This document shows positions 10,964 to 56,193 of a DNA stretch of 64,000 nt, in pieces. Both the position numbers and the translations under genes were made by a program. A model generated the notes under the pieces. That model did no database searches, was not told where the DNA came from, and saw only the letters and a program-made list of their open reading frames with translations. Each line of letters begins with the position of its first letter. The first letter of the stretch is position 1. The DNA lies in the NCBI RefSeq assembly GCF_024721115.1, contig NZ_JAMDHK010000005.1, forward strand, positions 245,155-309,154, given 5' to 3'. Source of the stretch: Salipiger pentaromativorans. GTDB lineage: Bacteria; Pseudomonadota; Alphaproteobacteria; Rhodobacterales; Rhodobacteraceae.

Positions 10964-11392
10964 CTACTGGATGGAAATATCCACGCGCTGGCTTTCGCCG
11001 CTGCTGCCGGGGATCTTGAGATAATAACGGCCCGGCTTGATGGCGAGGAACTCGATCTCCATCGTTCCGGCCTCGTCGAACTCGACGCTTTCCAGGCCGA
11101 AGGGCCGGATCTCCAGCCCGTTCACCACCACCTCGTTGACCCAGATCGCCCGGAAGAACCCCGAGCCTTCCAGCGCCAGTTCACCGCTGCCGTCGGCCTC
11201 GATCTCGAGCTCGTAGAGCATCCCGGATTTCAACGTGATCGGCGCCTCGGCCAGCGGCTTGCCCACCGACAGCAGGATGCCGGGCATCTCGCCCTTGTTG
11301 GAATTGGACAGCACGCCGGCAAAGCCGAAGTCATGCGCGGCGGCGGGCAGGGCGCATAGCGCGAGCGCCGCCGCGAATAGCGGGGTTTTCAT
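10964..11392 (-). CDS. small exported protein of unknown function
   Basis: A 142-residue protein with a clear signal peptide ending A-A-A and a predicted mature N-terminus starting with His (H-D-F-G-F). The rest is beta-rich, ending in a K-P-G-R-Y-Y-L-K-I-P-G segment that recalls the C-terminal strands of cupredoxin-like folds. The mature part has no cysteine, so a classical type 1 copper site is not possible. It lies 13 nt downstream of the ATPase gene of a NitT/TauT-type importer and probably shares its transcript. A periplasmic binding or scavenging role is plausible from position only. Confidence 0.7.
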   Translation of the reverse strand: MKTPLFAAALALCALPAAAHDFGFAGVLSNSNKGEMPGILLSVGKPLAEAPITLKSGMLYELEIEADGSGELALEGSGFFRAIWVNEVVVNGLEIRPFGLESVEFDEAGTMEIEFLAIKPGRYYLKIPGSSGESQRVDISIQ

Positions 11393-11405: not shown

Positions 11406-12077
11406 TCAGACCAGATGAGGGGAAAGCGTGGCCGGATGGCCGCGCAGCTCCAATATGCGGTTGGCTAGGCGTTCGGCCTCGGCTCTGGCATGGGTGACAA
11501 AGATCGTTGCGGGGCGGGCCTCGGCGATCAGCGCCTCGGTCAGCGACAGCATGGACTCGGCCAGCGCCGGATCGAGCGAGACAAAGGGCTCGTCCATGAC
11601 CAGCATCTCGGGCCGGCCGGCAAAGGCGCGCGCCAGCGCCAGCCGCCGCTGCTGACCCAGCGACAGGCGCCCCGGAAAGGCCTCTTCGCGGCCTTTCAGC
11701 CCGACCCGCGCCAGCGCGGCCCGGGCCTGCCGGTCGCTCAGTTCGGGATGGACCAGCGTCAGGTTGCGCAGCGCGCTGCGCCAGGGCAGCAGGGTGGGCT
11801 CCTGAAACACCATCGCCATGGATTCCGGCCGGTCGACATGGCCCTCGAAATCGCCGTCGAGCCCGGCAACAATCCGCAGCAGAGTGGATTTGCCGATCCC
11901 GGACGGCCCCAACAGCGCCACCGTCTCGCCACGCGCCACCTCGAAGCGCACGTTCTCCAGGATCGGCGTGACCCCGAACCGCTTGGCGCGAATATCGACG
12001 CGGATCACGCCCGGCTCCGGACGCAGGGGGCGAAAGGGCACGACGCGCCGGTCATCTGCGCAGCGATCCTGCCTCAT
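11406..12077 (-). CDS. ABC transporter ATP-binding protein, NitT/TauT (SsuB) type
   Basis: ATPase subunit of an importer. The 223 residues contain Walker A GPSGIGKS, a Q-loop F-Q-E-P-T-L-L-P-W, signature L-S-L-G-Q-Q and Walker B M-L-V-M-D-E-P. The signature has Leu where most families have Gly, which should not abolish function. The ATG at 12075-12077 overlaps the stop of the binding-protein gene (ATGA). An internal GTG about 24 codons later would remove a basic leader and is an alternative start. No permease gene lies nearby, and the only NitT/TauT-type permease in the window is at 48650-49459. Confidence 0.85.
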   Translation of the reverse strand: MRQDRCADDRRVVPFRPLRPEPGVIRVDIRAKRFGVTPILENVRFEVARGETVALLGPSGIGKSTLLRIVAGLDGDFEGHVDRPESMAMVFQEPTLLPWRSALRNLTLVHPELSDRQARAALARVGLKGREEAFPGRLSLGQQRRLALARAFAGRPEMLVMDEPFVSLDPALAESMLSLTEALIAEARPATIFVTHARAEAERLANRILELRGHPATLSPHLV

Positions 12078-13042
12078 TGCACCGCCGCGAAAAGACCGTC
12101 GGGCACGGCGTCGGCGCGGCCGACCAGCTCGGCCCCGCCGAGATCGGCCATCAGCGCCAGAAGCCGGCCCGCCGCCGCCGCATCCACCGGGCCGCGCGCG
12201 GGCACCCCCGCCAGCCAGTCGGCGCGAAGCTGCTCGAACTGCGCATCGGTCTTGGCATTCATCATCGGGCGAACCGCATCCCAGGCGCCAGCCTCGTCGG
12301 CCAGCAGCGCCTTGGCCTCGCGGCTGGCCTCGTAAAAGCCCTGCGCCAGATCGGGGTGGGACGCCAGGAAGTCGCCCTTGAAATAATAGCCCAGCAGCGG
12401 CACGTCCGGATCCAGCCCCAGCGCCATCGCGGCGGTCTCGACCGAGATCAGCTCGCGCATGCCGGCGGCCTTCATCTTGGCCAGGAAGTGCCAGAAATTG
12501 ATCGCCCCCGCGTAATCGCCGCCCAGTGCCGATTTGAAGATCAGCGGTGGCGCGCCAAAGACCTGCTCGGTCTCGGCCTTGAGATCGAGCCCGTATTCCT
12601 TCTGCGCATAGGCGCGCAGGATCAGCCAGGATTTGTCCAGCGGCCCGCCCGCGATGCCGATCTTGCCGCCGGCGAGATCGGCCAGCGTGCGGGCGTCCGA
12701 GCCCTCGGGCACCACGACCCCGCCGACCGCGCGGGAATAGGGCACCACCACATAGTCCTTGCCCTCGGCGCGCTGCCGCGCCACCCAGATCCAATCCGCC
12801 ACAGCCATGTCGGCCTCGCCGCCCTCGACCGCGATGCGGGTGGCGCCGTTGTCGGCATAGGGCATCATCTCGAGCTTGAAGCCGTGTTTCTCGTCCAGCC
12901 CGTTCGCGGCGATGGTGGACAGCTCCCAGTTCACCGTGCCGATCTTGAGCGTCGCGGCCCGGATCACCGGCAGATCCGCGGCCATCGCCGCCGAGGCCAG
13001 GCACAGCGCCCCGAGCGCCGCCATAAATCGTTGAAAGCGCAT
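12074..13042 (-). CDS. ABC transporter substrate-binding protein, NMT1/SsuA-like
   Basis: A periplasmic binding protein of 322 residues with a signal peptide (cleavage near A-M-A-A-D, about residue 22) and the two-lobed NMT1/THI5-SsuA-like fold: T-L-K-I-G-T-V-N-W-E near 31, V-E-G-G-E-A-D-M-A-V-A-D near 70 and a G-G-K-I-G-I-A-G segment near 125. A GGGGAGGAG ribosome-binding site precedes the ATG at 13040-13042, which decided the start over an in-frame ATG further upstream. Ligand unknown. The operon then encodes the ATPase and the small exported protein, but no permease. Its surroundings suggest a role tied to PQQ or methanol metabolism. Confidence 0.85.
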   Translation of the reverse strand: MRFQRFMAALGALCLASAAMAADLPVIRAATLKIGTVNWELSTIAANGLDEKHGFKLEMMPYADNGATRIAVEGGEADMAVADWIWVARQRAEGKDYVVVPYSRAVGGVVVPEGSDARTLADLAGGKIGIAGGPLDKSWLILRAYAQKEYGLDLKAETEQVFGAPPLIFKSALGGDYAGAINFWHFLAKMKAAGMRELISVETAAMALGLDPDVPLLGYYFKGDFLASHPDLAQGFYEASREAKALLADEAGAWDAVRPMMNAKTDAQFEQLRADWLAGVPARGPVDAAAAGRLLALMADLGGAELVGRADAVPDGLFAAVQ

Positions 13043-13132: not shown

Positions 13133-14104
13133 CTAGTGGGGCGTGATCGCCACGCCCCAGGGCTGCTGCCCCACCGGCACCGACCTGATGGCCTGTTCCC
13201 GGGCCACGTCGATCACCGTCACATCGTTGGAATTCCCGTTGGTCGTCACCAGAAACTCTTCACCCGGTGTAAAGGCCATCTGCCAGACGCGCTGTCCGAC
13301 CATGATATAATCGACAACCTCCAGCGAGGCGCCGTCGATCACCGCCACGCGATTCGCCGGCCCCAGCGCCACGAAGATACGGCTGCCGTCCCGGGTGATC
13401 TTGACCCCAACCGGCTGAAGCCATTCCGGCAGCACGCCGGGCACCTCGAAGCCGATCTTCTGCGTGAGCGTCGGCGTTCCGTCCTCGGCGATGTCGATCA
13501 CACTGACCGTGCCGCCGATCTCGGCGCTGACAAAGAGTCTTTTACCGTCCGCGGTGTATTCCGCATAGCGCGGGCGCTGGTCCACCAGCACATTGTGCTT
13601 GATCTGGTAATCCTCGGTCGAGATGAAATGCGCCATGTTGGTGGTCTCGGACGTATTCACCACCCATTTCTCGTCGGGCGAGATCGCCATGCCCTCGGGC
13701 TCGACCCCCACCGGCACCTCTGCCAGAATCTTGTGGGTCCGAGTATCGGTCACGGTGACGAGATTGTCGTCCTCATTGGCGATGTAGAGCGGCGAGCCTG
13801 CCGGATCGAGCACGAAGAGTTCGGGATCGGGGCCCGACGGCAGGGTGTAGAGCTCCTGATAGGTTTCGGTGTCGAAAACCCGCACCGCGTCGTCATCCGA
13901 GGCGCAGACATAAAGCAGCTTGCCATCGGGCGAGAGCGTGATGCCGCGCGGGCGGTTGCCGCCGCTGAATTCCTCGATGGGCTCCCAGGTCGATGTGTCG
14001 ATCACGGTGATGGTGTTGCCGCGCTCGTTCGAGACGAACGCCTTGCCCGCGAAGGCGCTGCTGGCCGCAAGGCACAGCGCGGCAGAGAGGATCAGGGGGT
14101 TCAT
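13133..14104 (-). CDS. PQQ-dependent catabolism-associated beta-propeller protein (YVTN type)
   Basis: An exported 323-residue beta-propeller of the family found beside PQQ-dependent alcohol dehydrogenases and their ABC transporter (TIGR03866-like). The signal peptide ends near A-F-A-G-K, and at least six N-T-I-T-V-I-D/D-x-x-T-x-x-x-x-x-x-V-P-V-G-type blades follow. An ATG at 14117-14119 overlaps the upstream stop, but the ATG at 14102-14104 has a GAGGAA ribosome-binding site at good spacing and a cleaner signal peptide, so it was chosen. Members of this family are encoded with the PedA1A2BC-type ABC system that Pseudomonas putida needs for lanthanide-dependent growth. The biochemical role is unknown. 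Confidence 0.85.
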   Translation of the reverse strand: MNPLILSAALCLAASSAFAGKAFVSNERGNTITVIDTSTWEPIEEFSGGNRPRGITLSPDGKLLYVCASDDDAVRVFDTETYQELYTLPSGPDPELFVLDPAGSPLYIANEDDNLVTVTDTRTHKILAEVPVGVEPEGMAISPDEKWVVNTSETTNMAHFISTEDYQIKHNVLVDQRPRYAEYTADGKRLFVSAEIGGTVSVIDIAEDGTPTLTQKIGFEVPGVLPEWLQPVGVKITRDGSRIFVALGPANRVAVIDGASLEVVDYIMVGQRVWQMAFTPGEEFLVTTNGNSNDVTVIDVAREQAIRSVPVGQQPWGVAITPH

Positions 14105-14115
14105 GGCGTGTTTCC

Positions 14116-15303
14116 TCATTGGAATGCGGTGCAGGCGGATTCGGGGCGGTCGAGCCCCAGCGTGTCCAGCGGCGAGACCTGGTGCAAAAAGCCTTCCTGC
14201 GGGCTCACGCTGACGGTGATCCGCCCATCGTAAAGCAGGATCGGCTGGCGCATCTGGCCGTTCCAGTCGCGAAAGGTCACCTTCTGCCCCTTGAAGGCGG
14301 CCAGCTCGAAAGCGTCCGACAGCACATAGGCCTCGATCTCGCGCGGGTCGGTGCTGGTCGTGCGGGTCACCGCCTCGCCCAGCACGCGCAGCGCCAGCCA
14401 GACGTTGTAATCCTCTTCCATCACGTAGCGGCGGGTGAGCTTTTCGAACCGGGTCTGGAACTGCGTCGCGCCCCAGGCCTCATGGGCACCGTGGATGGTG
14501 ACCGGGCGCAGCCCGGCGCTGCCCATGACCGGGCGCGGCGTCCACAGATGATAGGGCAGATAGGCGGCGAAATAATCGGTGGCATCGGCGGCGATCACCA
14601 CGTCATGCTCCTTGGTTCGTTGCATGAAGGTCGGCAATTGCCGCTGCACCATCACATGGCCGGAATCGGTCCGCCGGGCGCCGCCGGTGTCCTCGAAAAC
14701 CCGGTCCTCGACGACCTTCGCCCCGAACTTGTGCGCCGCGCGGCGATAGGCATCGGCCAGCGCGCGGTCGGCGGGGTTCGAGCCTTCGACCAGCAGCCAG
14801 CGCGGCCATTTCTTCCAGACCGCAAACTGCGCCACCGCATCGGCCTTCATGGCGTTCGAGGGCGCGATATGCAGCAGGTTGGCCCGGCAGGCATCGTCCC
14901 GCAGCGCTGTTTCCGGCGCACGGGTGTTCACCACCAGCGCCCCCGCCTGCGCGGCCCGGTCGGTCAGCCGCAGCAGATCCCCGGCCTGCGCGTCGATCAC
15001 CAGATACCGGATGCCCTCCGCAAGCAGCGCCTCGAGCGCCGCATCGGCCTCCTCCGGCGCTGCGGCAACGGTTGCGGTGTCGTAGCTGTGGCCCAGGAAC
15101 CGCCCGGTGGTGCCATTGTCCTCGTCGGCCAGCACCGCCCCGGCAAAGCCCAGATCCTCGGGCCGCAGATCGAAGCGCGAGATCGGCAGCAGAGTGGGGT
15201 AGTCCACCCGCAGCACCGCCGCGCGCACGTCCAGCGCCTGCGCAGCACCTGCAAAAACAGTAAGAAACGCCGCAGCGAGCAGCGGCACAAGCCTTGTCAG
15301 CAA
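14116..15303 (-). CDS. substrate-binding-like protein of the PQQ-dependent alcohol dehydrogenase ABC system
   Basis: A 395-residue periplasmic protein resembling branched-chain amino-acid/Leu-Ile-Val binding proteins, as in the TIGR03863 family linked to PQQ-dependent alcohol oxidation. It has a signal peptide (A-G-A-A-Q-A-L-D) followed by alpha/beta lobes. The likely start is the TTG at 15301-15303, which has a GGGAGGAG site 5 nt upstream. An ATG at 15346-15348 would add a basic leader and lacks such a site. The cognate permease and ATPase are encoded about 33 kb away (47137-48653). It is the first gene of the operon with the beta-propeller, and its promoter region is shared with the divergent 15459 gene. 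Confidence 0.85.
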   Translation of the reverse strand: MLTRLVPLLAAAFLTVFAGAAQALDVRAAVLRVDYPTLLPISRFDLRPEDLGFAGAVLADEDNGTTGRFLGHSYDTATVAAAPEEADAALEALLAEGIRYLVIDAQAGDLLRLTDRAAQAGALVVNTRAPETALRDDACRANLLHIAPSNAMKADAVAQFAVWKKWPRWLLVEGSNPADRALADAYRRAAHKFGAKVVEDRVFEDTGGARRTDSGHVMVQRQLPTFMQRTKEHDVVIAADATDYFAAYLPYHLWTPRPVMGSAGLRPVTIHGAHEAWGATQFQTRFEKLTRRYVMEEDYNVWLALRVLGEAVTRTTSTDPREIEAYVLSDAFELAAFKGQKVTFRDWNGQMRQPILLYDGRITVSVSPQEGFLHQVSPLDTLGLDRPESACTAFQ

Positions 15304-15435
15304 TGTCTCCTCCCAGATGCCCGGCTGTTTTTGTCGGGCTTTGCGCAACCCTGCCCGAGTCTCCGGCTTGGGCGGAACCGATACTTTTGGTTCGGTTGCA
15401 GGCTCTAGGGTAGCGGCGGCACCATGAGGCGCGAC

Positions 15436-15450
15436 TCTTAATTTCTAAGA
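15436..15450 (-). promoter_or_regulatory. inverted-repeat motif shared with the pqqA promoter region
   Basis: Read on the minus strand it is TCTTAGAAATTAAGA, which differs at one position from TCTTAGAAACTAAGA found 79 bp upstream of pqqA. It lies 133 bp upstream of the TTG start of the binding-protein gene and directly before the ribosome-binding site of the divergent 15459 gene. It is a candidate binding site for a common regulator. A weaker GAACC-N9-GGTTC inverted repeat is at 15375-15393. Confidence 0.45.
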
Positions 15451-15458
15451 AGGGGGAA

Positions 15459-15950
15459 ATGCTTACGCGCGTTGTCATCCTGAGCCTGGCGCTCTGCGGC
15501 GCGGCACAAGCGGAGGAGACGGTGGCCTTCTTCGGCATCACCTTGCTGGATTCCTCGCTTCAAACCGCCGAACTGGGCCAGGACCCGGCAGAGCTTGCCC
15601 GGCTGGCAATGCTGGAAGAGCAGGTGCGCGCGCGCTTTACGGAGGAGGGCTATGCGCTGGCCGATCTGACCCCGGTGGCCAAGGAACGCGACCGGATCGT
15701 GAACCCGGCGAAATGCTATGGCTGCGACACGCGCATGGCCGCAAAGCTGGGCGCCGATTATGCGCTGGTGGGCGAGGTTCAGAAGGTCTCGAACCTGATC
15801 CTGACCATGAACCTGCAGATGCGCAGCGCCGCGACCGGCCAAATGGTCAAGGGCCGCGTGGTCGATATTCGCGGCAACACGGACGAAAGCTGGACGCGCG
15901 GCATGCGCTACATCTTGAACAACACATTCTTCAGGGAGGAGGAGGAATGA
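15459..15950 (+). CDS. exported DUF3280/DUF2380-like protein
   Basis: A 163-residue exported protein with a short signal peptide (A-A-Q-A-E-E). The mature domain, E-T-V-A-F-F-G-I-T-L-L-D-S-S followed by a C-Y-G-C motif near residue 85 and G-A-D-Y-A-L-V-G-E-V-Q-K-V-S-N, resembles the DUF3280/DUF2380 group, which is related to TolB-like N-terminal domains. The C-x2-C pair could form a disulfide or bind metal. AGGGGG precedes the ATG. The stop overlaps the ATG of the SRPBCC gene (ATGA). This begins a four-gene operon with SRPBCC, beta-propeller and SoxYZ-like genes. Function unknown. Confidence 0.72.
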   Translation: MLTRVVILSLALCGAAQAEETVAFFGITLLDSSLQTAELGQDPAELARLAMLEEQVRARFTEEGYALADLTPVAKERDRIVNPAKCYGCDTRMAAKLGADYALVGEVQKVSNLILTMNLQMRSAATGQMVKGRVVDIRGNTDESWTRGMRYILNNTFFREEEE

Positions 15951-16498
15951 ACAGACGGTATTTGCTGATGTCGGGGGCGGCGCTGGCGCTGGTGCCCGGC
16001 ATGGCGCTGGCCCATGGGCCGAGCCGGCAGAAGATCACGCTGACGACCGAGGTGGCGGCGGAGCCTGCCGAGGTCTGGGCCGTGATCGGCAATTTCCAGG
16101 ACATGAGCTGGCACCCGGCGGTGGTGTCGCAGGAGGGACAGGGCGGCAACGAGATCGACGCCACCCGCATGCTGTATCTGAGCGACGCGGGCGCCGACGG
16201 TCCCAAGATCGACGAGATCCTGTACAAATACAGCGCCGAGAAAATGTCCTATTCCTACCGCATCACCGAGGTGGCGGTGGAGGTGCTGCCGGTCACCAAT
16301 TATTCCTCGCATCTGACCGTGATGCCGCGCGACGGCGGCGGTTCGGTGGTGGAATGGCGCGGCGCCTTCTATCGCGGCTACCCCAACAACGATCCGCCGC
16401 CCGAGCTGAACGACGAGGCCGCCATCGCGGCGGTGTCGGCGGTCTATCAGGCCGGGCTCGACGCGCTGGTCGAGCGGTTCGGTGCGCCCGCTTCGTAA
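15947..16498 (+). CDS. exported SRPBCC (START/Bet v1-like) protein
   Basis: A 183-residue protein with a signal peptide (M-N-R-R-Y-L-L, hydrophobic run, A-L-A-H). The mature SRPBCC fold is recognisable from A-E-P-A-E-V-W-A-V-I-G-N-F-Q-D-M-S-W-H-P near residues 37-56, the polyketide cyclase/dehydratase pattern, and a V-V-E-W-R-G-A-F-Y segment near 137. SRPBCC proteins bind hydrophobic ligands. An exported form in a PQQ operon could bind a cofactor or its precursor, but that is a guess. The stop overlaps the next gene's GTG start by 17 nt, indicating coupled translation. Confidence 0.8.
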   Translation: MNRRYLLMSGAALALVPGMALAHGPSRQKITLTTEVAAEPAEVWAVIGNFQDMSWHPAVVSQEGQGGNEIDATRMLYLSDAGADGPKIDEILYKYSAEKMSYSYRITEVAVEVLPVTNYSSHLTVMPRDGGGSVVEWRGAFYRGYPNNDPPPELNDEAAIAAVSAVYQAGLDALVERFGAPAS

Positions 16499-20932: not shown

Positions 20933-22735
20933 TCAGTCGGGAAGGGCAAAGACCGTCAGCTGGCCACCGAGCGCGGTGTAATCGGACAGTGCGGAATAGC
21001 CGCCCACCGCGCCAAGACCGTCGTTCGGATTGGTCAGGCCCGCCGCGAGGCCGATGCCTGCCCAGCCGCCGACGCCCGAGAGGATGCCGATATACTGCTT
21101 GCCGCCATGCTCGTAGGTCATCACGTTGCCGATGATGCCCGAGGGGGTCTTGAAGCGGTAAAGCTCCTCGCCGGTGTCCGCCGACACCGCCTTCAGATAG
21201 CCTTCGAGCGTGCCGTAGAACACCACGTCACCCGCGGTGGCCAGAGCGCCCGACCAGACCGAGAACTGCTCGGGGATCGACCACTTGATCTCGCCCGCGA
21301 TGTTGTCCCAGGCGATGAAGTTGCCCATGCCGCCGTGGCTGTCGGGCGCCGGATACATCGCCAGCGTCGCGCCCACATAGGGCTGACCGGCGGTGTAGCT
21401 GACCCGGAACGGCTCGTAATCCATGCAGACGTGGTTGGTCGGCACGTAGAAGAGGCCGGTTTTCGGCGAGAAGGACGCCGGTTGCTGGTCTTTCGACCCC
21501 AGCGCCGCCGGGCAGATGCCGGTCGAGTTCACGTCCTCGCCGTTCTGCTCGGTGGAATATTCGGCCACAACCGCCGGGCGGCCATAGGTCGCCGAGTTCG
21601 GGTCCATGTCGACGCCGGTGGTCCAGTTCACCGCCGGATCGTATTTCTCGGCCACCAGCAGCTCGCCGGTGATGCGGTCGAGCGTATAGCCAAGGCCGTT
21701 CCGGTCGAAATGGGTGAGCAGCTTGCGCATCTCGCCGTTCACTTCCTGATCGGTCAGGATCATCTCGTTGATGCCGTCATAATCCCACTCGTCATGGGGC
21801 GTCATCTGATAGACCCATTTGGCCATGCCGTCGTCGGGATCGCGCGCCATGATGGTCATCGACCAGCGGTTGTCGCCGGGCCGCTGCGCCGGGTTCCAGG
21901 TCGAGGGGTTGCCGGTGCCGTAATAGATCAGGTCGGCCTCGGGATCGTAGGAATACCAGCCCCAGGTGGTGCCGCCGCCGATCATCCACTGATCGCCTTC
22001 CCAGGTGTTGGTGCCCGAGTTCTCGCCCACCGGCGTGCCAAGATGGGTGGTGGTCTGCGGGTCCATCAGGATATCGCTGTCCGGGCCCATGGAATAGGCG
22101 CGCCATTCCAGTGCCCCGGTTTCCATGTTGTAGGCCGTCACCGAGCCGCGCACGCCGAATTCGCCGCCGGAAATCCCGACGATCACCTTGTCCTTGACCG
22201 GCATCACCGTGGCGGTGTTGGTCTCGCCCTTGGACGCGTCGCCGTTCATCACCTCCCACAGCACCTCGCCGGTGTTGGCATCGAGCGCCACCACCTTGGT
22301 GTCGGCCTGGTGCAGGAAGATCTTGCCGTCGGCATAGGCCACACCCCGGTTCACCGTGTCGCAGCACATCACCGGAATGACGTTCGGATCCTGCTTGGGT
22401 TCGTAACGCCACTTGATGCGGCCGTCCTCGTTGAGATCGAGCGCATAGACGATGTTGGGGAAAGGCGTGTGCACGAACATCGTGTCGCCCACCACCAGCG
22501 GAGAGCCCTCGTGCCCGCGCAGAACGCCGGTCGAGAAGGTCCAGGCGACCTGTAGGTCGTCCACATTGCCGGCGTTGATCTGGTCAAGCTCGGAATAACG
22601 CTGGTTGGCATAGTCGCCCGTCTGGATCGCCCATTGCGCGGGGTTGTCCATCTGGGTCATCAGGTCGTCGTTGGCCATGGCCATGGTCGCGGCGCATAGA
22701 GCCACACCCGACGTCAAAAGCGTCAGCTTCTTCAT
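20933..22735 (-). CDS. xoxF: lanthanide-dependent PQQ methanol dehydrogenase XoxF
   Basis: Periplasmic quinoprotein oxidising methanol (and possibly formaldehyde). The 600 residues start with a signal peptide ending A-M-A-N (about residue 21), followed by an eight-bladed propeller. Seen directly: vicinal Cys124-Cys125 (M-C-C-D-T-V-N-R-G), metal ligands Glu192 (G-G-E-F-G-V-R-G) and Asn276 (G-T-G-N-P), catalytic Asp318 and the additional Asp320 in E-W-D-Y-D-G. The Glu-Asn spacing (84) and the Asn-Asp spacing (42) equal those of Methylobacterium MxaF, which has Ala at the last position. An Asp there marks lanthanide-dependent enzymes. Sequence blocks resemble clade 5 XoxF. No mxaI-like small subunit gene is present. 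Confidence 0.96.
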
Positions 22736-25419: not shown

Positions 25420-26040
25420 ATGTTGAATATCAAACAAATCGCCCTGAGCGCGGCCCTTCTGGGCTGTGCCGGGCCGCTGCTTGCGGCCGATTTTTCGGAC
25501 CCGACCTGGCCTTGCGTCCAGCGCAAGGTCGAACACCTGTCCATCGGGCTGATGTGGCCCGCACCACTGGCCAAGCTGAAGCTGACCCCCGAAACCGACC
25601 GCGCCGCCGAAGAGCTGGCCGAAACGCTGGCACTGCGCCGGGTCGATCTCGATGCCGCCCGGGTTGCGGCAGAGGCGTTTGCCGAGAGCGAGGGGCGCGA
25701 TACCGCGCTCATGGGCGAGATCTTTGCCCGGGTCTTCGACAAGCTGGCGACGCGGCGCACCCGGATCATCGGAGGAATCGGGGCATTTTCGACCAGCCAG
25801 ATCGCCCTGTCCGAACGCATCGACGCGACCCGCGGCGAGATGGACGCCCAGATGGCGCTGGAGACGCCGGATTACGACCGGGTGGACGCGCTGGAGGAAC
25901 AACTCGACTGGGACCAGCGGATCTTTACCGACCGGCAGAAGACGATCACCTATCTCTGCGAAACCCCGGTGCTGCTGGAAAAGCGGCTCTATGCGTTGGC
26001 GCAGATGCTGTACGAGACTGCGCAGCCGGACGGGGGATAA
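25420..26040 (+). CDS. exported protein of unknown function, divergent from flhA
   Basis: A 206-residue protein with a signal peptide (G-P-L-L-A-A-D). The mature region is mostly alpha-helical and acidic, with W-P-C-V-Q-R-K-V near residue 30 and one more cysteine (Y-L-C-E-T) near 182 that could pair with it. No domain is recognised. A GGGAGGAAAG ribosome-binding site precedes the ATG. It is convergent with the metallohydrolase gene and divergent from flhA. Its position among quinoprotein-relay genes suggests a periplasmic accessory role, nothing more specific. Confidence 0.75.
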   Translation: MLNIKQIALSAALLGCAGPLLAADFSDPTWPCVQRKVEHLSIGLMWPAPLAKLKLTPETDRAAEELAETLALRRVDLDAARVAAEAFAESEGRDTALMGEIFARVFDKLATRRTRIIGGIGAFSTSQIALSERIDATRGEMDAQMALETPDYDRVDALEEQLDWDQRIFTDRQKTITYLCETPVLLEKRLYALAQMLYETAQPDGG

Positions 26041-44571: not shown

Positions 44572-44574
44572 CCG

Positions 44575-45300
44575 TCAGTGGCTCAGAAACGCCTGGGCGT
44601 CGGCCTCGCCGGCGCCGATGGCGGTGGCGGGCTGCGACCCCTCGACCAGAACCGCCGCCTGGGTCCGGTTCTTGACCCCCAGCCGGCGGAGCAGCGCCGT
44701 GATATGCGCCTTGACCGTCGCCTCGGCCAGCGACATCTCGTAGGCGATCTGCTTGTTGGGCTTGCCGGCGCAGATCAGCTTCATGATGCGCTGCTGCTGC
44801 GGCGTCAGCTCGGCCAGCTTCGGATGGAGCGCTTCGAGCGGCGCAGCCCCTGCCCCGGCGCCGGCCACGCTCTGATAGCCGGAATGGACGTATTTGCGCC
44901 CCGCGCCGATCTCTTCCAGCGCCTGGCGCAGCACCTGGGCCGAGGCGTCCTTGGGCAGAAAGCCGGCGGCCCCCTCCTCCATCAGCGCCCGCACCACCTG
45001 CACCGAGGTCAGCGAGGAGATCACCAGAATCGGCGCATCGGGCAGCACCGCCCGCAACCGCTGGAACCCCGAGATCCCCGAGACATCCGGCAGTTTCAGA
45101 TCGAACATCACCAGATCGGGGGCGAAGCCGCCGTCGAGCAGCGTCAGCGCCGCCCCCAGCGTCTGGGCCTTTTCCATCCGGCAATCGGGGAACACCAGTT
45201 GCAGCGCGGCGGCCAGCGCATCGCTGTAAAGCGGATGGTCATCCACGATCACAACGGATCGGATGGCGCCCGCAGGCGGCGCCTCGTGCGTGTCTTTCAT
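44575..45300 (-). CDS. NarL/LuxR-family response regulator
   Basis: A 241-residue regulator with a receiver domain (phospho-acceptor Asp67 in V-M-F-D-L-K-L-P, acidic pair V-D-D-H near 19-22, Lys in F-L-P-K-D near 114) and a LuxR-type helix-turn-helix (L-T-P-Q-Q-Q-R-I-M near 168; N-K-Q-I-A-Y-E-M-S-L-A-E-A-T-V-K near 184-199). It begins the operon with the FIST and kinase genes. Position next to gfa and homology of layout to FlhR/AfdR-type systems suggest control of formaldehyde and methanol genes. Confidence 0.9.
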   Translation of the reverse strand: MKDTHEAPPAGAIRSVVIVDDHPLYSDALAAALQLVFPDCRMEKAQTLGAALTLLDGGFAPDLVMFDLKLPDVSGISGFQRLRAVLPDAPILVISSLTSVQVVRALMEEGAAGFLPKDASAQVLRQALEEIGAGRKYVHSGYQSVAGAGAGAAPLEALHPKLAELTPQQQRIMKLICAGKPNKQIAYEMSLAEATVKAHITALLRRLGVKNRTQAAVLVEGSQPATAIGAGEADAQAFLSH

Positions 45301-47136: not shown

Positions 47137-47934
47137 TTAGCGGCCCGGCTTGCGCCGGGTCAGCCCGTAGGCCGGATCGTAGCCCACCAGCGCCAGACCG
47201 AAGAACACCCCGAAGCTGACCGCGACCCACAGAAGCGCCATACCGTTCAGGTTTTGATACAGCGCGAAGCGGATCAGCTCGACCGCATGGGTGAAGGGGT
47301 TCACCGCGCAGATGTCGCGCAGGAGGTCCGAGCTTTCAGCCATCTTCCACAGCGGGTAAAGCGCGCTCGACAGAAAGAACATCGGGAAGATGACGAAATT
47401 CATCACCCCGGCGAAATTCTCAAGCTGCCGGATCGTCGAGGAAATGAGCAACCCCAGCGCGCCCAGCATCAGCCCGCTGATGACCAGCGCGGGCAGGACA
47501 TAGAGATAGCCCAGCGGCGGCAGCACGATGCCGAACCCCGCGGCGATGGCCAGAAACACATAGACCTGAAGAATCGACACCGCGACACCGGCGAGCAGCT
47601 TGGACAAGAGCAGCCACCAGCGCGGCAGCGGCGAGGTCAGCAGCAGCCGCATCGAGCCCATCTCCTGATCGTAGACCAGCGAGAGCGAGCTTTGCATCCC
47701 GTTGAAAAGCTGGATCATTCCGCAAAGCCCCGGAACGATGTAGACCTCATAGGTGATGTAGGTCTGATAGGGCGGGATGATCGAAAGCCCAAGCGCGGCG
47801 CGGAACCCCGCCGCAAAAACCACCAGCCAGACCAGCGGACGCACCAGCGCCGCGAGAAACCGGCTGCGCTGGTGCAGAAACCGCAGCGCCTCGCGGCGCA
47901 CGATGGCGAGCAGCGCGACGAGATAGGGTTTCAT
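47137..47934 (-). CDS. ABC-2 type permease of the PQQ-dependent alcohol system (PedC-like)
   Basis: A 265-residue inner-membrane protein with about six helices (near 20-40, 55-75, 100-125, 130-160, 165-190, 228-250) and the ABC-2 layout: N-G-M-Q-S-S-L-S-L-V-Y-D-Q-E-M-G near 83-98 and R-D-I-C-A-V-N-P-F-T-H-A-V-E near 208-221. It resembles the TIGR03861 permease family. In Pseudomonas putida the equivalent transporter (PedA1A2BC) is required for lanthanide-dependent growth. The ATG overlaps the ATPase stop (ATGA). The matching binding protein and propeller are encoded at 13133-15303. Confidence 0.88.
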   Translation of the reverse strand: MKPYLVALLAIVRREALRFLHQRSRFLAALVRPLVWLVVFAAGFRAALGLSIIPPYQTYITYEVYIVPGLCGMIQLFNGMQSSLSLVYDQEMGSMRLLLTSPLPRWWLLLSKLLAGVAVSILQVYVFLAIAAGFGIVLPPLGYLYVLPALVISGLMLGALGLLISSTIRQLENFAGVMNFVIFPMFFLSSALYPLWKMAESSDLLRDICAVNPFTHAVELIRFALYQNLNGMALLWVAVSFGVFFGLALVGYDPAYGLTRRKPGR

Positions 47935-48653
47935 GCGGTCTCTCCGGTCGCGGTCATCTCGATGAACACATCGGCCAGCGGGCGCCCCTTCCGCAGCTCT
48001 GCGGCGGTGTCATGTGCCAGCACATGGCCCCGGTGCAGCACGACCACATCGTCGCTGTCATGGATCTCGTCCACCAGATGGGTGGCCCAGAGAACGGTCA
48101 GCCCGCCCGCCGCCAGCTCGTGCACATGCGCAACGATGTCCTGCCGGCTCTTGAAATCCAGCCCGACCGTGGCCTCGTCGAGCAGCAGCACCTCGGGCCT
48201 GTGGATCAGCGCACGGGCGATCTCCATCCGCCTTCGGTGACCGCCGTTCAGGCCGCGCACGGTCTCGCCCGCGCGTTCTGCCATGCCCAGCCGCTCCAGC
48301 GCCTCTTGCGCGCGCCGCGCCGCCTCGCGCCCGGAAATGCCGTGCAGGGCCGCGAAATAGCGCATGTTCATGGCCACCGACATATCCAGATCGAGCGTCG
48401 GCTGCTGGAACACCACACCGATTTTCGACAGCGCCGCGCGTGGCTCTTTCGCGATGTCGTGCCCGGCGACGGTGATGCGCCCTTCCTTGGTGACGAAAAG
48501 CCGCGTGAGCAGCGAGAACAGGGTCGATTTCCCGGCGCCGTTCGGGCCCAGAAGCGCGGTGAACCGCCCCGGCCGCAGCGCAAAGCTCACCCCGTCGAGC
48601 GCCCGTTTGGCCCCGTAGCTGTAGCCGAGATCCACGAGTTCGAGGGCGGTCAC
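47931..48653 (-). CDS. ATP-binding subunit of the PQQ-dependent alcohol ABC system
   Basis: A 240-residue ATPase (TIGR03864-like) with Walker A G-P-N-G-A-G-K-S near 36-43, Q-loop V-F-Q-Q-P-T near 82, an unusual signature L-N-G-G-H-R-R-R near 137 and Walker B V-L-L-L-D-E-A near 157. Gly-His in the signature and Ala after D-E are typical of this ABC-2 group. It starts at GTG (48651-48653), overlapping the stop of the upstream permease (GTGA). Pairs with the ABC-2 permease at 47137-47934. Confidence 0.9.
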   Translation of the reverse strand: MTALELVDLGYSYGAKRALDGVSFALRPGRFTALLGPNGAGKSTLFSLLTRLFVTKEGRITVAGHDIAKEPRAALSKIGVVFQQPTLDLDMSVAMNMRYFAALHGISGREAARRAQEALERLGMAERAGETVRGLNGGHRRRMEIARALIHRPEVLLLDEATVGLDFKSRQDIVAHVHELAAGGLTVLWATHLVDEIHDSDDVVVLHRGHVLAHDTAAELRKGRPLADVFIEMTATGETA

Positions 48654-49459
48654 GCCGTCCCTCCCCGCCAGCGCCGCACGCGGCGTTCCCAGGGTTGCAG
48701 GACCAGCCATTCGACCGTCAGCATGACGGCGATGAAGGAGAAGGCATAGACCAGCACCATCCCCACATCGAAAAGCTGGAAATAGAGGTGAATCTGAAAT
48801 CCGATGCCGTTCGAGCGGCCCAGGAACTCCACCACCAGAACGATCTTCCAGATCACCGCCACGCCCGAACGCGCGGCGGCGGTCAGGAAGGGCGCAAGCT
48901 GCGGCAGCACCACATGGCGCATCCGGCGGCGCCACGGCATCCGGTAGACCCCGGCCATGGCGTCCAGCCCGGGGTCGAGCGCCCGCGCGCCCTCGCGGAT
49001 CACCGTTGCGACATTGGGGATCTTGTTCAGCGTGACGGCCGCGATGGCGGCGGCCTCGGTGAGCCCGATCCACAGATAGCACAGCACGATGAGCACCAGC
49101 GCCGGCAGGTTCAGGAAGATCACCAGCCAGGGGTCGAGCCAGCGGTCGAGTACCGGAAGCCGGCCCATCGCCAGCCCCAGCGCGGTGCCGAGACTCATGG
49201 CAAGCACAAAGGCCCAAAGCACCCGCGACAGCGTCCAGCCCAGATGATAAAGCAGCTCACCCGATTGCAGCGCCTGTGCAAAGGGCCGGGCCAGCGCCCA
49301 GGGCTGCGGCAGGATCTGGGGATCGGCGGTCACCGCCGCCGCCACGATCCAGATCAGCCCGAGCGCGACAAGCGAGATCGCGGGCACCGCAATCCGCCCG
49401 GGCACCTTCTGCCCGGCGGTGGCCGCTCCCTGCCAGCGCTCTGCCGTGTCGTTCGGCAA
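48650..49459 (-). CDS. ABC transporter permease, NitT/TauT (SsuC) type
   Basis: A 269-residue inner-membrane permease with about six helices and the EAA-type loop (G-V-Y-R-M-P-W-R-R-R-M-R-H near 167-179, then P-Q-L-A-P-F). Sequence and length match SsuC/TauC-like permeases. The predicted start is TTG (49457-49459) with a GGGGAGGAT site upstream; no in-frame ATG fits. It has no ATPase or binding protein of its own type nearby, because the neighbouring ATPase is of the ABC-2 kind. It is the likely partner of the orphan SsuA/SsuB-like pair at 11406-13042. Confidence 0.87.
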   Translation of the reverse strand: MPNDTAERWQGAATAGQKVPGRIAVPAISLVALGLIWIVAAAVTADPQILPQPWALARPFAQALQSGELLYHLGWTLSRVLWAFVLAMSLGTALGLAMGRLPVLDRWLDPWLVIFLNLPALVLIVLCYLWIGLTEAAAIAAVTLNKIPNVATVIREGARALDPGLDAMAGVYRMPWRRRMRHVVLPQLAPFLTAAARSGVAVIWKIVLVVEFLGRSNGIGFQIHLYFQLFDVGMVLVYAFSFIAVMLTVEWLVLQPWERRVRRWRGGTA

Positions 49460-49616
49460 CGGAAATCCTCCCCTTCCTCGGAAGGACCGTGACCGTTCGC
49501 GCCGCGCGCGTCAATTACTCCGAAGGGAGGAGAGCGGTTTCACCCGGTCGCAAAGGATCGCTCTGCGCAGCCGTGTCACCCGCATCCGCTGCTGCCTGCG
49601 GCCCTGACATCGGGCC

Positions 49617-51572: not shown

Positions 51573-51581
51573 GGTGTCGCC

Positions 51582-52844: not shown

Positions 52845-52873
52845 AGTCTAAGCGTTTCTTAGAAACTAAGACT
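52845..52873 (+). promoter_or_regulatory. pqqA upstream palindrome with the shared 15-bp motif
   Basis: A 29-bp imperfect palindrome (AGTCT ... AGACT at its ends) that contains TCTTAG-AAA-CTAAGA at 52857-52871, a perfect inverted repeat with 6-bp arms, 79 bp before the pqqA ATG. The same motif with one change lies at 15436-15450. Candidate regulator site. It follows the thioesterase stop by about 28 bp, so terminator function is an alternative. Confidence 0.5.
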
Positions 52874-52950
52874 CGCCTCCCCCCGTCTGTGTTTGGCAGT
52901 CTGGCATGCACCGAAACAATCGTTCGGCACGCCAGAGGAGGAGGAAACCC

Positions 52951-53043
52951 ATGGCCTGGACCAAGCCCGTGATCCGCGAAATCGAGTGCGGTATGGAAAT
53001 CAACATGTACGGCCCCGAGCACGACGACGGCGTCCTGTTCTGA
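52951..53043 (+). CDS. pqqA: PQQ precursor peptide PqqA
   Basis: The 30-residue ribosomal peptide from which PQQ is made: start M-A-W-T-K-P, with Glu16 and Tyr20 in E-I-N-M-Y, the two residues that PqqE cross-links and that become the cofactor skeleton. The E-x3-Y spacing is canonical. A strong GAGGAGGAAA ribosome-binding site precedes the ATG. It is followed 23 bp later by pqqB. Confidence 0.96.
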   Translation: MAWTKPVIREIECGMEINMYGPEHDDGVLF

Positions 53044-53066: not shown

Positions 53067-53963
53067 ATGCAATTCCGCGCGCGCATTCTGGGGGCCGCCG
53101 CGGGCGGCGGCCTGCCTCAGTGGAACTGCGGCTGCGACAATTGCCGCAGCGCCCGCGCGGGCGAGATCCCGCCGCAGACGCAAAGCTCGCTCGCCGTCTC
53201 CGCCAACGGGCGGGACTGGGCGGTGCTGAACGCCTCGCCCGACATCCGCGCCCAGCTCGCGGCCTGCACCGTCCTGCACCCGACGGGCCTGCGCGAGATA
53301 CCGCTGCGTTCGGTGCTGCTCACCAATGGCGACATCGACCATGTGGCGGGGCTTTTGACGTTGCGCGAAATGCAGCCCTTCACGCTTTACGCCACACCCG
53401 GCATCCACGAGGTGCTGGCGGAAAACCCGATCTTTTCCGCGCTGAACCCGGCGGTCGTAACCCGCGCCACCGTGGCGCTCGACAGCCCCGCCGAGATCGC
53501 GCCGGGCCTTGTCGCAACGCTCTTCGCGGTGCCCGGCAAGGTGCCGCTCTATCTCGAGGGCGAGGAGGTGCAGACCGATCTCATGGGCGAACAGACCGTG
53601 GGGGTCGAGCTCACAGCAGGCGATGACACCGCCTATTACATTCCCGGCTGCGCGCGGCTCACCGACGCGCTGCGCGACAGGCTTTCCGGCGCAGCACTGG
53701 TGTTTTTCGACGGCACGCTCTGGCGCGACGACGAGATGGTCCGCGCCGGGCTCGGCAGCAAGACCGGCCAGCGCATGGGCCATATGTCGATGAGCGGCGC
53801 GGAGGGCTCGATCGCCGCCTTCGCCGGGCTCGATATCGGAGAGAAGATCTTCGTTCACATGAACAACACCAACCCCGTCCTGCGCCCCGGCTCGGAGGAG
53901 CGCCGGGAAGCGGAAGCGGCGGGATGGACCATCGGTCAGGACGGCATGGAGGTCACGGCATGA
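53067..53963 (+). CDS. pqqB: PQQ biosynthesis protein PqqB
   Basis: A 298-residue metallo-beta-lactamase-fold oxygenase that hydroxylates the tyrosine part of the PQQ precursor. Seen: start R-I-L-G-A-A-A-G-G-G-L-P-Q-W-N-C, the zinc C-x-C-x2-C set (W-N-C-G-C-D-N-C near 19-26), D-I-D-H-V-A-G near 90-96 in place of the usual HxHxDH, and F-V-H-M-N-N-T-N-P near 263-271. The ATG at 53067 fits the family N-terminus. Its stop overlaps the pqqC ATG (ATGA). Confidence 0.95.
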   Translation: MQFRARILGAAAGGGLPQWNCGCDNCRSARAGEIPPQTQSSLAVSANGRDWAVLNASPDIRAQLAACTVLHPTGLREIPLRSVLLTNGDIDHVAGLLTLREMQPFTLYATPGIHEVLAENPIFSALNPAVVTRATVALDSPAEIAPGLVATLFAVPGKVPLYLEGEEVQTDLMGEQTVGVELTAGDDTAYYIPGCARLTDALRDRLSGAALVFFDGTLWRDDEMVRAGLGSKTGQRMGHMSMSGAEGSIAAFAGLDIGEKIFVHMNNTNPVLRPGSEERREAEAAGWTIGQDGMEVTA

Positions 53964-54709
53964 CGATGACACGCGACGCATTCGAGGCACGGCTGCGGCA
54001 GATCGGGGCCGAGCGCTATCACGATCTGCACCCGTTCCATCACCGGCTGCATGGCGGCGGCTGCACCCAGGACGAGGTGCGCGCTTGGGTGATCAACCGC
54101 TATTACTACCAGCATTCGATCCCGATGAAGGACGCCGCCTTCATGTCCCGCGTCGAGGATCCGGCGCTGCGCCGCGCCTGGCGGAGCCGGATCGAGGATC
54201 ACGACGGCACCGAGACCAATGAGGGCGGTATCCGCCGCTGGCTGCGGCTGGCGAAGGCGGTGGGGCTCGACCCCGATTATGTCGCCTCCTGCGAGGGCGT
54301 GCTGCCGGCCACGAAATTCGCCGTCGACGCCTATGTGCGCTTCGTGCGCGACAAGACGTTGCTCGAGGCCGTCGCCGCCTCGCTCACCGAGCTTTTCGCC
54401 CCGGCGATCCACGCCAACCGCATCGAAGGGCTGCTGAAGAATTACGATTTCGCCGATGACAGCGCGCTCTCCTATTTCCGCAACCGGCTGAAAGAGGCGC
54501 CCAAGGACGTGGCCTTCGGGCTGAAATGGGTGCTCGACCACGCCGATACGGCGGAAAAACAGGAGATGGCGGCGAAAGCGCTGATCTTCAAAACCGATGT
54601 GCTCTGGTCGCAGCTCGATGCGCTCTGGGGCGCTTATGTCGAGCCCGCGCGCATCCCGCCCGGCGCCTGGCGCCCCGGCGAGGGGTTGCGCGCCGCCGAG
54701 GCCGCGTGA
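53960..54709 (+). CDS. pqqC: pyrroloquinoline-quinone synthase PqqC
   Basis: Cofactorless oxidase catalysing the last ring closure and oxidation to PQQ. The 249-residue all-helical protein has H-P-F-H near 27, N-R-Y-Y-Y-Q near 50-55, I-E-D-H-D-G-T near 79-85, the V-L-P-A-T-K-F-A-V-D-A-Y-V-R-F motif near 114-128, and W-V-L-D-H-A near 191. An ATG two codons further is possible, but the ATGA overlap with pqqB favours 53960. Its stop overlaps the pqqD start. Confidence 0.95.
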   Translation: MTMTRDAFEARLRQIGAERYHDLHPFHHRLHGGGCTQDEVRAWVINRYYYQHSIPMKDAAFMSRVEDPALRRAWRSRIEDHDGTETNEGGIRRWLRLAKAVGLDPDYVASCEGVLPATKFAVDAYVRFVRDKTLLEAVAASLTELFAPAIHANRIEGLLKNYDFADDSALSYFRNRLKEAPKDVAFGLKWVLDHADTAEKQEMAAKALIFKTDVLWSQLDALWGAYVEPARIPPGAWRPGEGLRAAEAA

Positions 54710-54981
54710 TGTCGCCCGCCGACATCCCCGCCCTGCCCCGCGGCGTGCGCCTGCACTGGGACCGGGTGCGCGAGACCTGGGTGCTGCTGGCGCCGGAACG
54801 TACCGTCACGCTCGACGCGGTGGCCCATGCCATCCTGTCGGAACTCGACGGCATCCGCAGCCTGGGTGAGATCACCGAAACGCTCGCCGCGAAATACCAC
54901 GCCCCGCCAGAGCAGATCGCCGCCGACAGCGCCGGATTCCTCGGTGCGTTGCACGCCCGCCGCTTTCTCGACCTGCGGTGA
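54709..54981 (+). CDS. pqqD: PQQ peptide chaperone PqqD
   Basis: A 90-residue winged-helix-like chaperone (RRE fold) that binds PqqA and presents it to PqqE. Motifs: P-R-G-V-R-L-H-W-D-R near 10-19, W-V-L-L-A-P-E-R near 24-31, L-D-A-V-A-H-A-I-L near 35-43 and a helical tail. The ATG overlaps the pqqC stop (TGATG). Normally pqqE follows at once; here a 105-nt open frame intervenes. Confidence 0.94.
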   Translation: MSPADIPALPRGVRLHWDRVRETWVLLAPERTVTLDAVAHAILSELDGIRSLGEITETLAAKYHAPPEQIAADSAGFLGALHARRFLDLR

Positions 54982-54985
54982 TGCG

Positions 54986-55090
54986 ATGACCCATCCGCCC
55001 CTGCCCCGCATGCAGCTTCTTCTCTTTCCAAATACGCACGGCACGGCCTCGACCACCGGGCCCGCCGCCGCAGAAAAAGGCGCTTCATGA
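54986..55090 (+). CDS. possible 34-residue peptide between pqqD and pqqE
   Basis: An open frame begins 4 bp after the pqqD stop and ends in an ATGA overlap with pqqE, so it would couple the two genes. It starts M-T-H-P-P-L-P-R and contains L-L-L-F-P-N-T-H-G. There is no clear ribosome-binding site apart from GCGGTGATG. Part of its DNA (about 55016-55046) resembles the dispersed repeat at 18904 and 63964, so the frame may be an inserted spacer rather than a gene. Confidence 0.25.
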   Translation: MTHPPLPRMQLLLFPNTHGTASTTGPAAAEKGAS

Positions 55091-56193
55091 CGACCCGTCC
55101 CCCCATCGCCATGCTGGCCGAGCTCACCCACCGTTGCCCGCTCGCCTGCCCCTATTGCTCCAACCCGGTCGATCTCGCCCGACAGGAGAGCGAACTCGAC
55201 ACCGACGCATGGCGCGACGTGTTCCGGCAGGCCGCCGATCTGGGTGTGTTGCAGCTCCACCTCTCCGGCGGCGAGCCCGCCACCCGCCGCGATCTGGAAG
55301 AGCTGGTGCAGGCCGCCCGCGACGCCGGGCTCTACACCAATCTCATCACCTCCGGCATCGGCCTGACCGAACGGCGGCTGAGGGCGCTCGACAATGCCGG
55401 GCTCGACCATATCCAGCTTTCGCTTCAGGGCACCACGCCCGAGATGGCCGACGAGATCGGCGGCTACGCGGGCGGCTACAGGCGCAAGATGATGGTGGCC
55501 GAGTGGATCGGACAGATCGGCTTTCCGCTCACCCTCAACGCGGTGCTGCACCGGCGCAACCTGCATCAGCTGCCCCGCGCGCTGGAGATGGCGGTGGAGA
55601 TGGGCGCACGCCGCATCGAGGTCGCCACCGTGCAGTTCCATGGCTGGGCGCTGAAAAACCGCGATGCACTGATGCCGACCCGCGCGCAAGCCGAGGAGGC
55701 GACGCGCATCGTGACAGAGGCGCGCGCGCGGCTGAAAGGCACGCTGGTGATCGACTATGTGCCCGCCGATTACCATTCCGATTACCCCAAGCGCTGCATG
55801 GGCGGCTGGGGCTCGACAGGGCTCAACGTCGCGCCCGATGGCACGGTGCTGCCCTGCCACGCGGCCCAGACCATCCCCCACCTTCGGTTCGACAACCTCC
55901 GCGACAAGCCCCTCTCCGAAATCTGGTACAAGGGCACGGCCTTCAACGCCTATCGCGGCACGGGCTGGATGCCCGAGCCCTGCGCAAGCTGCGACCGCAA
56001 GGAGGTGGATTTCGGCGGCTGCCGCTGCCAGTCCATGGCACTCGCGGGGGATGCGGCGGCCACCGATCCCGTTTGCGTGAAATCGCCCCATCACAGCGAT
56101 CTGCAATCCCGTGCAGCAGCCCATGCGACGGCGGCAGACGCACCGCTGATTTATCGCAGCGTCCCCGGCAGAGCGACCGAACCGGCGGAATGA
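55087..56193 (+). CDS. pqqE: PqqA peptide cyclase PqqE (radical SAM)
   Basis: Radical SAM enzyme joining Glu16 and Tyr20 of PqqA. The 368-residue protein has the SAM [4Fe-4S] motif C-P-L-A-C-P-Y-C (Cys17, Cys21, Cys24), the G-G-E motif in L-S-G-G-E-P near 60, and a C-terminal SPASM domain with cysteines in R-C-M-G-G-W-G near 238, L-P-C-H near 257, C-A-S-C near 299-302 and G-G-C-R-C near 310-314. Starts in an ATGA overlap with the preceding small frame. Last pqq gene, convergent with map. Confidence 0.96.
   Translation: MTTRPPIAMLAELTHRCPLACPYCSNPVDLARQESELDTDAWRDVFRQAADLGVLQLHLSGGEPATRRDLEELVQAARDAGLYTNLITSGIGLTERRLRALDNAGLDHIQLSLQGTTPEMADEIGGYAGGYRRKMMVAEWIGQIGFPLTLNAVLHRRNLHQLPRALEMAVEMGARRIEVATVQFHGWALKNRDALMPTRAQAEEATRIVTEARARLKGTLVIDYVPADYHSDYPKRCMGGWGSTGLNVAPDGTVLPCHAAQTIPHLRFDNLRDKPLSEIWYKGTAFNAYRGTGWMPEPCASCDRKEVDFGGCRCQSMALAGDAAATDPVCVKSPHHSDLQSRAAAHATAADAPLIYRSVPGRATEPAE

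Follow-up and report, generated by a model that had tools for sequence, protein, structure and literature searches.

The closest described relatives of the system treated here are the pedA1A2BC genes of Pseudomonas putida, deletion of which raises the lanthanum need of the cell about 100-fold in the part of PMC6839425 drawn on here, and the lut genes of Methylorubrum extorquens. In the latter, according to the consulted portions of PMC7391723, lutE and lutF mutants do not grow on methanol with lanthanum, a lutA mutant grows slowly, and all three carry lanthanum deposits in the periplasm. A further relevant protein is PqqT, which binds pyrroloquinoline quinone (PQQ) with a dissociation constant of 50 nM (excerpts of PMC12124388, citing Ho and Cotruvo 2019) and of which the structure 9B1V contains both PQQ and Gd (excerpts of PMC12828617). 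We analyzed a stretch of 64,000 nucleotides from Salipiger pentaromativorans (the window; contig NZ_JAMDHK010000005.1, positions 245,155 to 309,154), which codes for all four Ped components, distributed over two distant half-operons. We consider it likely that these four genes specify a single lanthanide importer of the PedA1A2BC/LutABEF kind, which is interleaved with a PqqT-type importer and split in the genus.

A profile search of the window proteins with NCBIfam, using the curated cut-offs as the threshold for all four Ped genes, placed every one of them above its cut-off (Table 1) and at the coordinates given by the initial annotation. The separation of about 33 kb that had been proposed for the system also stands, the distance from PedA1 to PedC being 32.0 kb by match coordinates, and all four genes lie on the minus strand. 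The 5.28-Mb genome has no second PedC, and no ATPase other than that of the window reaches the PedB cut-off. PedA1, by contrast in copy number, is present twice: as the window copy and at C33:209320-210357, adjoining a second PedA2. This second pair, on contig C33 (G000:C33:204264-210357, in locus L072; G000 is the genome of the window), has a dehydrogenase with the motif WDYDG about 3.5 kb from its PedA1, and its PedA1 scores 490 bits against the family model versus 473 bits for the window copy. A complete second copy of the system, which the initial annotation had named as an observation that would tell against its proposal, was sought in the rest of the genome; only the PedA1 and PedA2 pair on C33 was found. 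The structure model of the window PedA1 is poor (mean predicted local distance difference test score, pLDDT, of 53) and matches Leu/Ile/Val-binding proteins with Z up to 16.5, which tentatively points to a fold of that class and to the fold class only. By sequence, neither PedA1 nor the small exported protein at 10964-11392 has a relative in the PDB (limits 0.01 and 1).

The initial annotation overlooked that a TauT/NitT-type ATP-binding cassette (ABC) set (11406-13042 and 48650-49459) is divided where the Ped genes are divided. The left half codes for PedA1, PedA2, the PqqT-like binding protein, its ATPase and the small exported protein; the right half codes for the permease of the latter set, PedB and PedC, with the stop of the permease gene overlapping the GTG start of PedB. 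Each half thus has one half of the lanthanide importer and one half of what is probably a PQQ importer, and neither is complete. The assignment of PQQ as the cargo comes from homology: the binding protein aligns with PqqT over residues 27-318 (E 7e-61), which is nearly its full length, and the next unrelated PDB match has an E of 0.04. Moreover, the lysine of an LDK stretch is conserved in 35/35 aligned stretches, some of which are the same gene fetched twice, and counting along the alignment suggests that it corresponds to K142 of PqqT. A TonB receptor that directly follows a PqqT-type set in another genome (L197:12482-16980, G322) is a candidate outer-membrane partner for PQQ. It could be argued that the TauT/NitT-type set instead imports a non-PQQ substrate, such as a sulfonate or a thiamine-like compound, and that its linkage to the Ped genes is accidental. 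The NCBIfam matches of its three proteins, which are only generic or far below the cut-off, are compatible with this, as is the position of the permease away from both PedC and PedA1 in 11 of the 38 family genomes that have it, four of these 11 being devoid of PedC. However, the specific alignment with PqqT, the invariant lysine and the presence of the permease no more than 25 kb from PedC or PedA1 in the other 27 of the 38 genomes make this alternative unlikely.

The link to lanthanides comes from the enzymes that accompany these genes. The XoxF methanol dehydrogenase that the initial annotation saw between the two halves is indeed of the lanthanide type: its best solved match is XoxF 6oc5 (1077 bits), and it has the Asp-x-Asp (DxD) pair D301/D303, which we take to be lanthanide ligands. 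At E<=1e-60 the genome yields three PQQ alcohol dehydrogenases, and each of them has a DxD pair. The third of them (G000:C12:58823-60349, L103) has the motif PFDYDA, also a DxD pattern. We extended the comparison to 149 genomes of the family (G-labels denote genomes and L-labels loci). PedC and PedA1 co-occur in 43 of these, PedC is found alone in two, PedA1 alone in one, and 103 have neither. A PQQ dehydrogenase match is found in 44 of the 45 genomes with PedC versus 4 of the 104 others. Aspartate occupies the lanthanide position in 34 of 38 further dehydrogenase loci of the family (a count that includes L139, an incomplete and atypical locus). The remaining four loci are in G002, G109, G125 and G083; G109 and G125 own another DxD enzyme, G002 has an additional XoxF match of 86% and G083 has XoxF-like fragments, the motif having been read in neither of the last two. 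Among XoxF stretches of over 70% identity the DxD motif is present in 25/25 (22 distinct genes).

That lanthanides are the cargo, and that they move inward, we infer from the published mutants of other species. ABC-2 type permeases, the class to which PedC belongs, are better known for export. One might accordingly suppose that PedA1A2BC exports something (a chelator, for example, or a factor that helps PQQ dehydrogenases mature) and that the lanthanide phenotypes are secondary. The relationship of PedC to DrrB-type exporters (TIGR01247, 118 bits) would fit such a role, and a table in a 2026 review, as far as that source was available, enters PedB as an ABC efflux ATPase. Against it stand the dedicated periplasmic binding protein, which is typical of import in general and is used as an argument for it in the relevant part of PMC6839425, and the periplasmic lanthanum deposits of the lutA, lutE and lutF mutants (PMC7391723, in part). 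We thus regard export as improbable. The role in lanthanide supply that the initial annotation proposed retains its basis in the PedA1A2BC/LutAB-EF identity of the genes and their company with lanthanide-type dehydrogenases; the proposal was incomplete in that it lacked the PqqT-type set, the genus-wide extent of the split and the second PedA1/PedA2 pair.

Across the family the four Ped genes usually form a single run, an organization that S. pentaromativorans does not share. PedA1 and PedC are at most 9 kb apart in 33 of the 43 genomes with both, far apart on one contig in two (the window's genome and its congener G088), and on different contigs in eight, some of which are perhaps assembly breaks. 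Two genomes, G071 and G111, in which XoxF is the only dehydrogenase match, preserve an intact run of XoxF ... PedA1-PedA2-PqqT-permease-ATPase-PedB-PedC; in G002 the small exported protein interrupts the run, and XoxF is located on a different contig. In a tree of PedA1 (52 rows), a clade of 22 rows is set behind a long branch (0.85, support 100/100). It contains all 19 rows labelled as XoxF-linked, together with G067b, G139b and G002; one of the rows so labelled, G130b, is about 94 kb from XoxF. The window PedA1 falls inside this clade and the C33 PedA1 outside it. The tree of PedC (38 rows, from the 45 family genomes with PedC) is not divided in this way, and genomes with either or both types of PedA1 are mixed in it. 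These trees and the copy numbers suggest that one PedBC pump probably serves two PedA1 proteins, one on the side of XoxF and one on the side of the C33 dehydrogenase.

The same data bear on the idea that the two halves are separate systems, with the left binding proteins using some other ATPase and permease and PedBC working only with the C33 PedA1. The presence of two PedA1 proteins for one PedC and the higher score of the C33 copy lend it some plausibility. Two features of the PedC tree tell against the importer as we propose it: the tree sets apart one clade of four genomes with the XoxF-type PedA1 (100/100), and its labels are weakly clustered, with 8 changes for the XoxF-type group versus a shuffled mean of 10.4 and a value as low in 29/500 shuffles. 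Apart from these, PedC lineages are not divided by the type of PedA1. Further, G088, a congener, is split into these halves as well and owns a single PedA1, of the XoxF-linked type, and in G071 and G111 the window's type of PedA1 stands in one run with PedBC. Separate systems are therefore, in our estimate, decidedly improbable.

The division recurs in most of the genus. Exactly one PedC (E<=1e-60) is present in 19 of 20 genus genomes, and 16 of these 19 show the permease-PedB-PedC arrangement, with PedA1/PedA2 adjoining it in none of the 16. PedA1 or its operon was located in 12 of the 16 split genomes, this count omitting G437, G441, G445 and G452, where PedA1 is outside the stretches read: in 11 the two halves share a contig at a distance of 13 to 54 kb, and in one they are on different replicons. 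In Salipiger abyssi, the plasmid pPABY2 (188,936 bp) carries PedA1-PedA2-PqqT-ATPase-small protein and XoxF, and pPABY5 (131,420 bp) carries permease-PedB-PedC; G436 has stretches identical to both plasmid records and a single PedC. The halves share a strand in S. pentaromativorans and are oppositely oriented in G088, Alloyangia pacifica and Salipiger sp. CCB-MM3. In plasmids of the last two, pqqABCDE and repABC lie between the halves. The repABC plasmid replication genes of A. pacifica and CCB-MM3 are found at L232:18710-22172 and L236:15386-18860. An assembly artefact is ruled out by the recurrence of the same half-operon boundaries in G088, in three named Salipiger/Alloyangia strains (four plasmid records) and in further congeners. 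Nor can the arrangement have arisen merely by the entry of some 32 kb into an unbroken operon, because the gene order itself differs: the intact order is PqqT-permease-ATPase, but here the ATPase is on the left and the permease on the right.

The two halves are preceded by different conserved DNA elements. The one upstream of PedA1, with the inverted-repeat consensus TTCTTAGAAAnTAAGAnTCG, recurs upstream of pqqA. In 1.275 Mb of genus sequence, which includes some stretches in duplicate, 28 sites match it with up to three mismatches: 14 before PedA1, 14 before pqqA or pqqB and none elsewhere. With doubles removed by hand count, the box stands at 12/12 PedA1 genes and 13/14 pqqB genes, G453 being the genome without it. 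For 60 column-shuffled versions of the motif the mean was 0.07 matches and the highest count 2; as the motif had been derived from these same sites, this control tests its specificity, not its discovery. Outside the genus set (220 loci, 1.53 Mb, including two window loci), the box is found before PedA1 in G002 and before both PedA1 and the pqq genes in G125, with three mismatches before PedA1 in G035, and as one unplaced three-mismatch match in G047 (L141). It is absent before most PedA1 genes scanned outside the genus (e.g., those of G071 and G111) and in the C33 locus. The left operon, which has this box in common with the pqq genes, is apparently co-controlled with PQQ synthesis. A second inverted repeat, AACCGAACC...GTATCGGTT, lies just downstream of the box (window 15375-15399, minus strand), and part of it, TAAGTATCGGTT, is also found before PedA1 in G071 and G111.

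Taken together, we propose that PedA1, with the propeller PedA2, would capture the lanthanide ion or a lanthanide chelate in the periplasm and pass it to the inner-membrane pump PedB/PedC, and that the PqqT-type importer may bring in PQQ, the cofactor that sits beside the lanthanide in the enzyme. An ancestral run resembling PedA1-PedA2-PqqT-permease-ATPase-PedB-PedC would have been rearranged in the genus into two operons, the left with the binding proteins and the ATPase for PQQ, and the right with the permease for PQQ and PedBC. The proteins of both operons are predicted to reassemble in trans, so that the distance between the halves would be unimportant. Each operon could then be controlled separately, the left one sharing its box with PQQ synthesis, and the single PedBC would be fed by two PedA1 proteins, one encoded beside XoxF and the other near the lanthanide-type dehydrogenase on C33. 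The more radical notion that PQQ itself is the lanthanide carrier in these bacteria, for which our searches gave no LutH, with the cell making and recapturing PQQ, binding Ln-PQQ via PqqT and PedA1 and importing the matched pair, would explain the sharing of operons by the two importers, the box common to the binding half and pqqABCDE, and the retention of the interleaving through the split, even onto two plasmids, yet we hold it to be very improbable.

Several observations weigh against a lanthanide importer of the proposed kind and extent. Dehydrogenase matches occur without PedC in G008, G048, G078 (which has PedA1) and G098; the G048 assembly is 99% complete and the other three are 82-84% complete. 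Conversely, G047 has PedC with neither PedA1 nor a dehydrogenase match, and G083 has PedC without PedA1. The split is not universal in the genus either: in G442 PedC directly adjoins a distant PedA1/PedA2 pair (37-38%), and in G443 and G444 PedBC is found without the permease there. The box of the left half was not found before the right half, and we do not claim a common regulator for both. Finally, two partners known from the lut cluster did not surface in the genome: a LutH query, run without a positive control of its own, gave no match at E<=1, and no clear lanmodulin emerged from the best of four weak matches, the one that was read.

Table 1. Features of the window that bear on the divided lanthanide and PQQ importers.
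Feature	Position	Strand	Evidence or remark
Small exported beta-sandwich protein	10964..11392	-	33-36% identical to protein between lutB and lutE in Methylorubrum/Methylobacterium
ATPase of PqqT-type importer	11406..12077	-	ATGA overlap with binding-protein gene at its start
PqqT-like PQQ-binding protein (predicted)	12074..13042	-	PDB 9b1u/9b1v/9ooz, E 7e-61 to 2e-60; lysine 137 conserved
PedA2/LutB, exported beta-propeller	13133..14104	-	TIGR03866, 504 bits (cut-off 287.3)
PedA1/LutA, periplasmic binding protein	14116..15303	-	TIGR03863, 473 bits (cut-off 413.6); TTG start behind GGAGGAG ribosome site
Conserved box TTCTTAGAAATTAAGAGTCG upstream of PedA1	15432..15451	-	
SRPBCC protein	15947..16498	+	Relatives annotated SRPBCC
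XoxF, lanthanide-type methanol dehydrogenase, between the halves	20933..22684	-	Motif W-D301-Y-D303-G
LutG-like exported protein	25420..26040	+	30-35% to gene after lutF in Methylorubrum/Methylobacterium
PedC/LutF, ABC-2 type permease	47137..47934	-	TIGR03861, 430 bits (cut-off 241.35); ATGA overlap with PedB
PedB/LutE, ATPase	47931..48650	-	TIGR03864, 343 bits (cut-off 302.25); GTG start overlapping permease stop
Permease of PqqT-type importer, first gene of right half	48650..49459	-	TTG at 49459 is the probable start, by visual judgement
Conserved element CTCCCTTCGGAGTAATTGACGC, unlike the left box, before right half	49508..49529	-	
Same box as upstream of PedA1, TTCTTAGAAACTAAGACTCG, upstream of pqqA	52856..52875	+	
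pqqA precursor peptide, first gene of pqqABCDE	52951..53043	+	Derived position
pqqBCDE	53067..56193	+	Domains of B, C and E; match to relatives' annotated pqqB-E

Of the remaining genes, the SRPBCC protein is probably of the MxaD-homologue type, and the model of the small exported protein (pLDDT 70) gives Z of about 9, which is near background, with many cupredoxin domains. Potential signalling genes are found at two places. The region 41183-45252 is one run coding for a PAS histidine kinase, a FIST-domain protein and a LuxR-type regulator, and a run of this type also accompanies the cluster in G088 and on plasmids from A. pacifica, S. abyssi and CCB-MM3. A histidine kinase and an OmpR-type regulator separate the right half from pqqA (49998-52262); of the 16 split genomes, 15 have this pair adjoining the permease, and it was not seen in G440. 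Response regulators of the two places span 44575-45252 and 51582-52262.

In our judgement the window codes for a lanthanide importer of a type already described but newly arranged: it is interwoven with a PqqT-type PQQ importer, and both are divided. Neither the split nor the joint PqqT-Ped arrangement is described in the titles and abstract openings of the literature searched, a set outside which subscription journals and preprints fall, nor in the accessible portions of PMC7391723, PMC6839425, PMC13088180, PMC12828617, PMC12124388, PMC12997753, PMC5934484, PMC12482762, PMC11996626 and PMC10875860. Annotation based on gene neighborhoods would label each half an orphan. The locus offers a testable set for lanthanide entry in Roseobacteraceae that lack LutH, consisting of one pump, two candidate metal-binding proteins and a PQQ importer. 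In S. abyssi, where the halves are on different plasmids, a cell that loses either one should import neither lanthanide nor PQQ. In S. pentaromativorans, a single deletion of 14116-15303 may show little, because the second PedA1/PedA2 pair may cover for it; the lutA mutant, too, still grew slowly.

The outer-membrane step can be compared with the lut organization through a TonB receptor that adjoins PedC in G430. This receptor has 100% identity to its counterpart in Methylobacterium bullatum and 73-74% to those of Methylorubrum. A query with it returned 20 named loci, 19 of which are from Methylobacterium or Methylorubrum. Four of the five loci inspected contain LutA, LutB, the small exported protein, LutE, LutF, LutG and the receptor, and L220 has none of these genes nearby. 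In L214, the open reading frame after the receptor has four DPD-type EF hands and is presumably lanmodulin. The window has counterparts of all genes of the lut run except the receptor and lanmodulin. The TonB Pfam model, which does detect the G430 receptor, finds three TonB receptors in the S. pentaromativorans genome, one B12-like and two heme-like, and no LutH-like one; as none of the three is on the contig of the window, the earlier statement that the window has no TonB receptor is borne out. The best match to a lanmodulin query (C7:178823, E 4e-6), the only one read of four weak-match loci, is a generic EF-hand protein with loops lacking the DPD pattern.

The system shares with PedA1A2BC of P. 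putida KT2440 the four gene types and the link to PQQ dehydrogenases, and in the parts of PMC6839425 and PMC12997753 available to us a LutH homologue is not reported for that organism either. P. putida differs in having one ped cluster, with PedH/PedE in place of XoxF, and a PqqT-type set is not among the ped genes named in the same portions of these two papers. The likeness to the lut cluster of Methylorubrum extorquens AM1 (PMC7391723, in part), compared in Methylobacterium and Methylorubrum genomes, extends to identities of 38-40% for LutA, 59-61% for LutB, 50-53% for LutE and 64% for LutF, and to window counterparts of the LutG-like gene and of the small protein after LutB. The lut genes stand in a single run that LutH follows, as does lanmodulin in the one locus read completely, whereas the Salipiger system is split and has the PqqT-type importer added. 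With PqqT of Methylobacterium extorquens (PDB 9b1u/9b1v) the binding protein shares near-full-length homology and the lysine kept in the LDK stretch; here, however, its ABC partners are spread over two operons that also hold the lanthanide importer genes.

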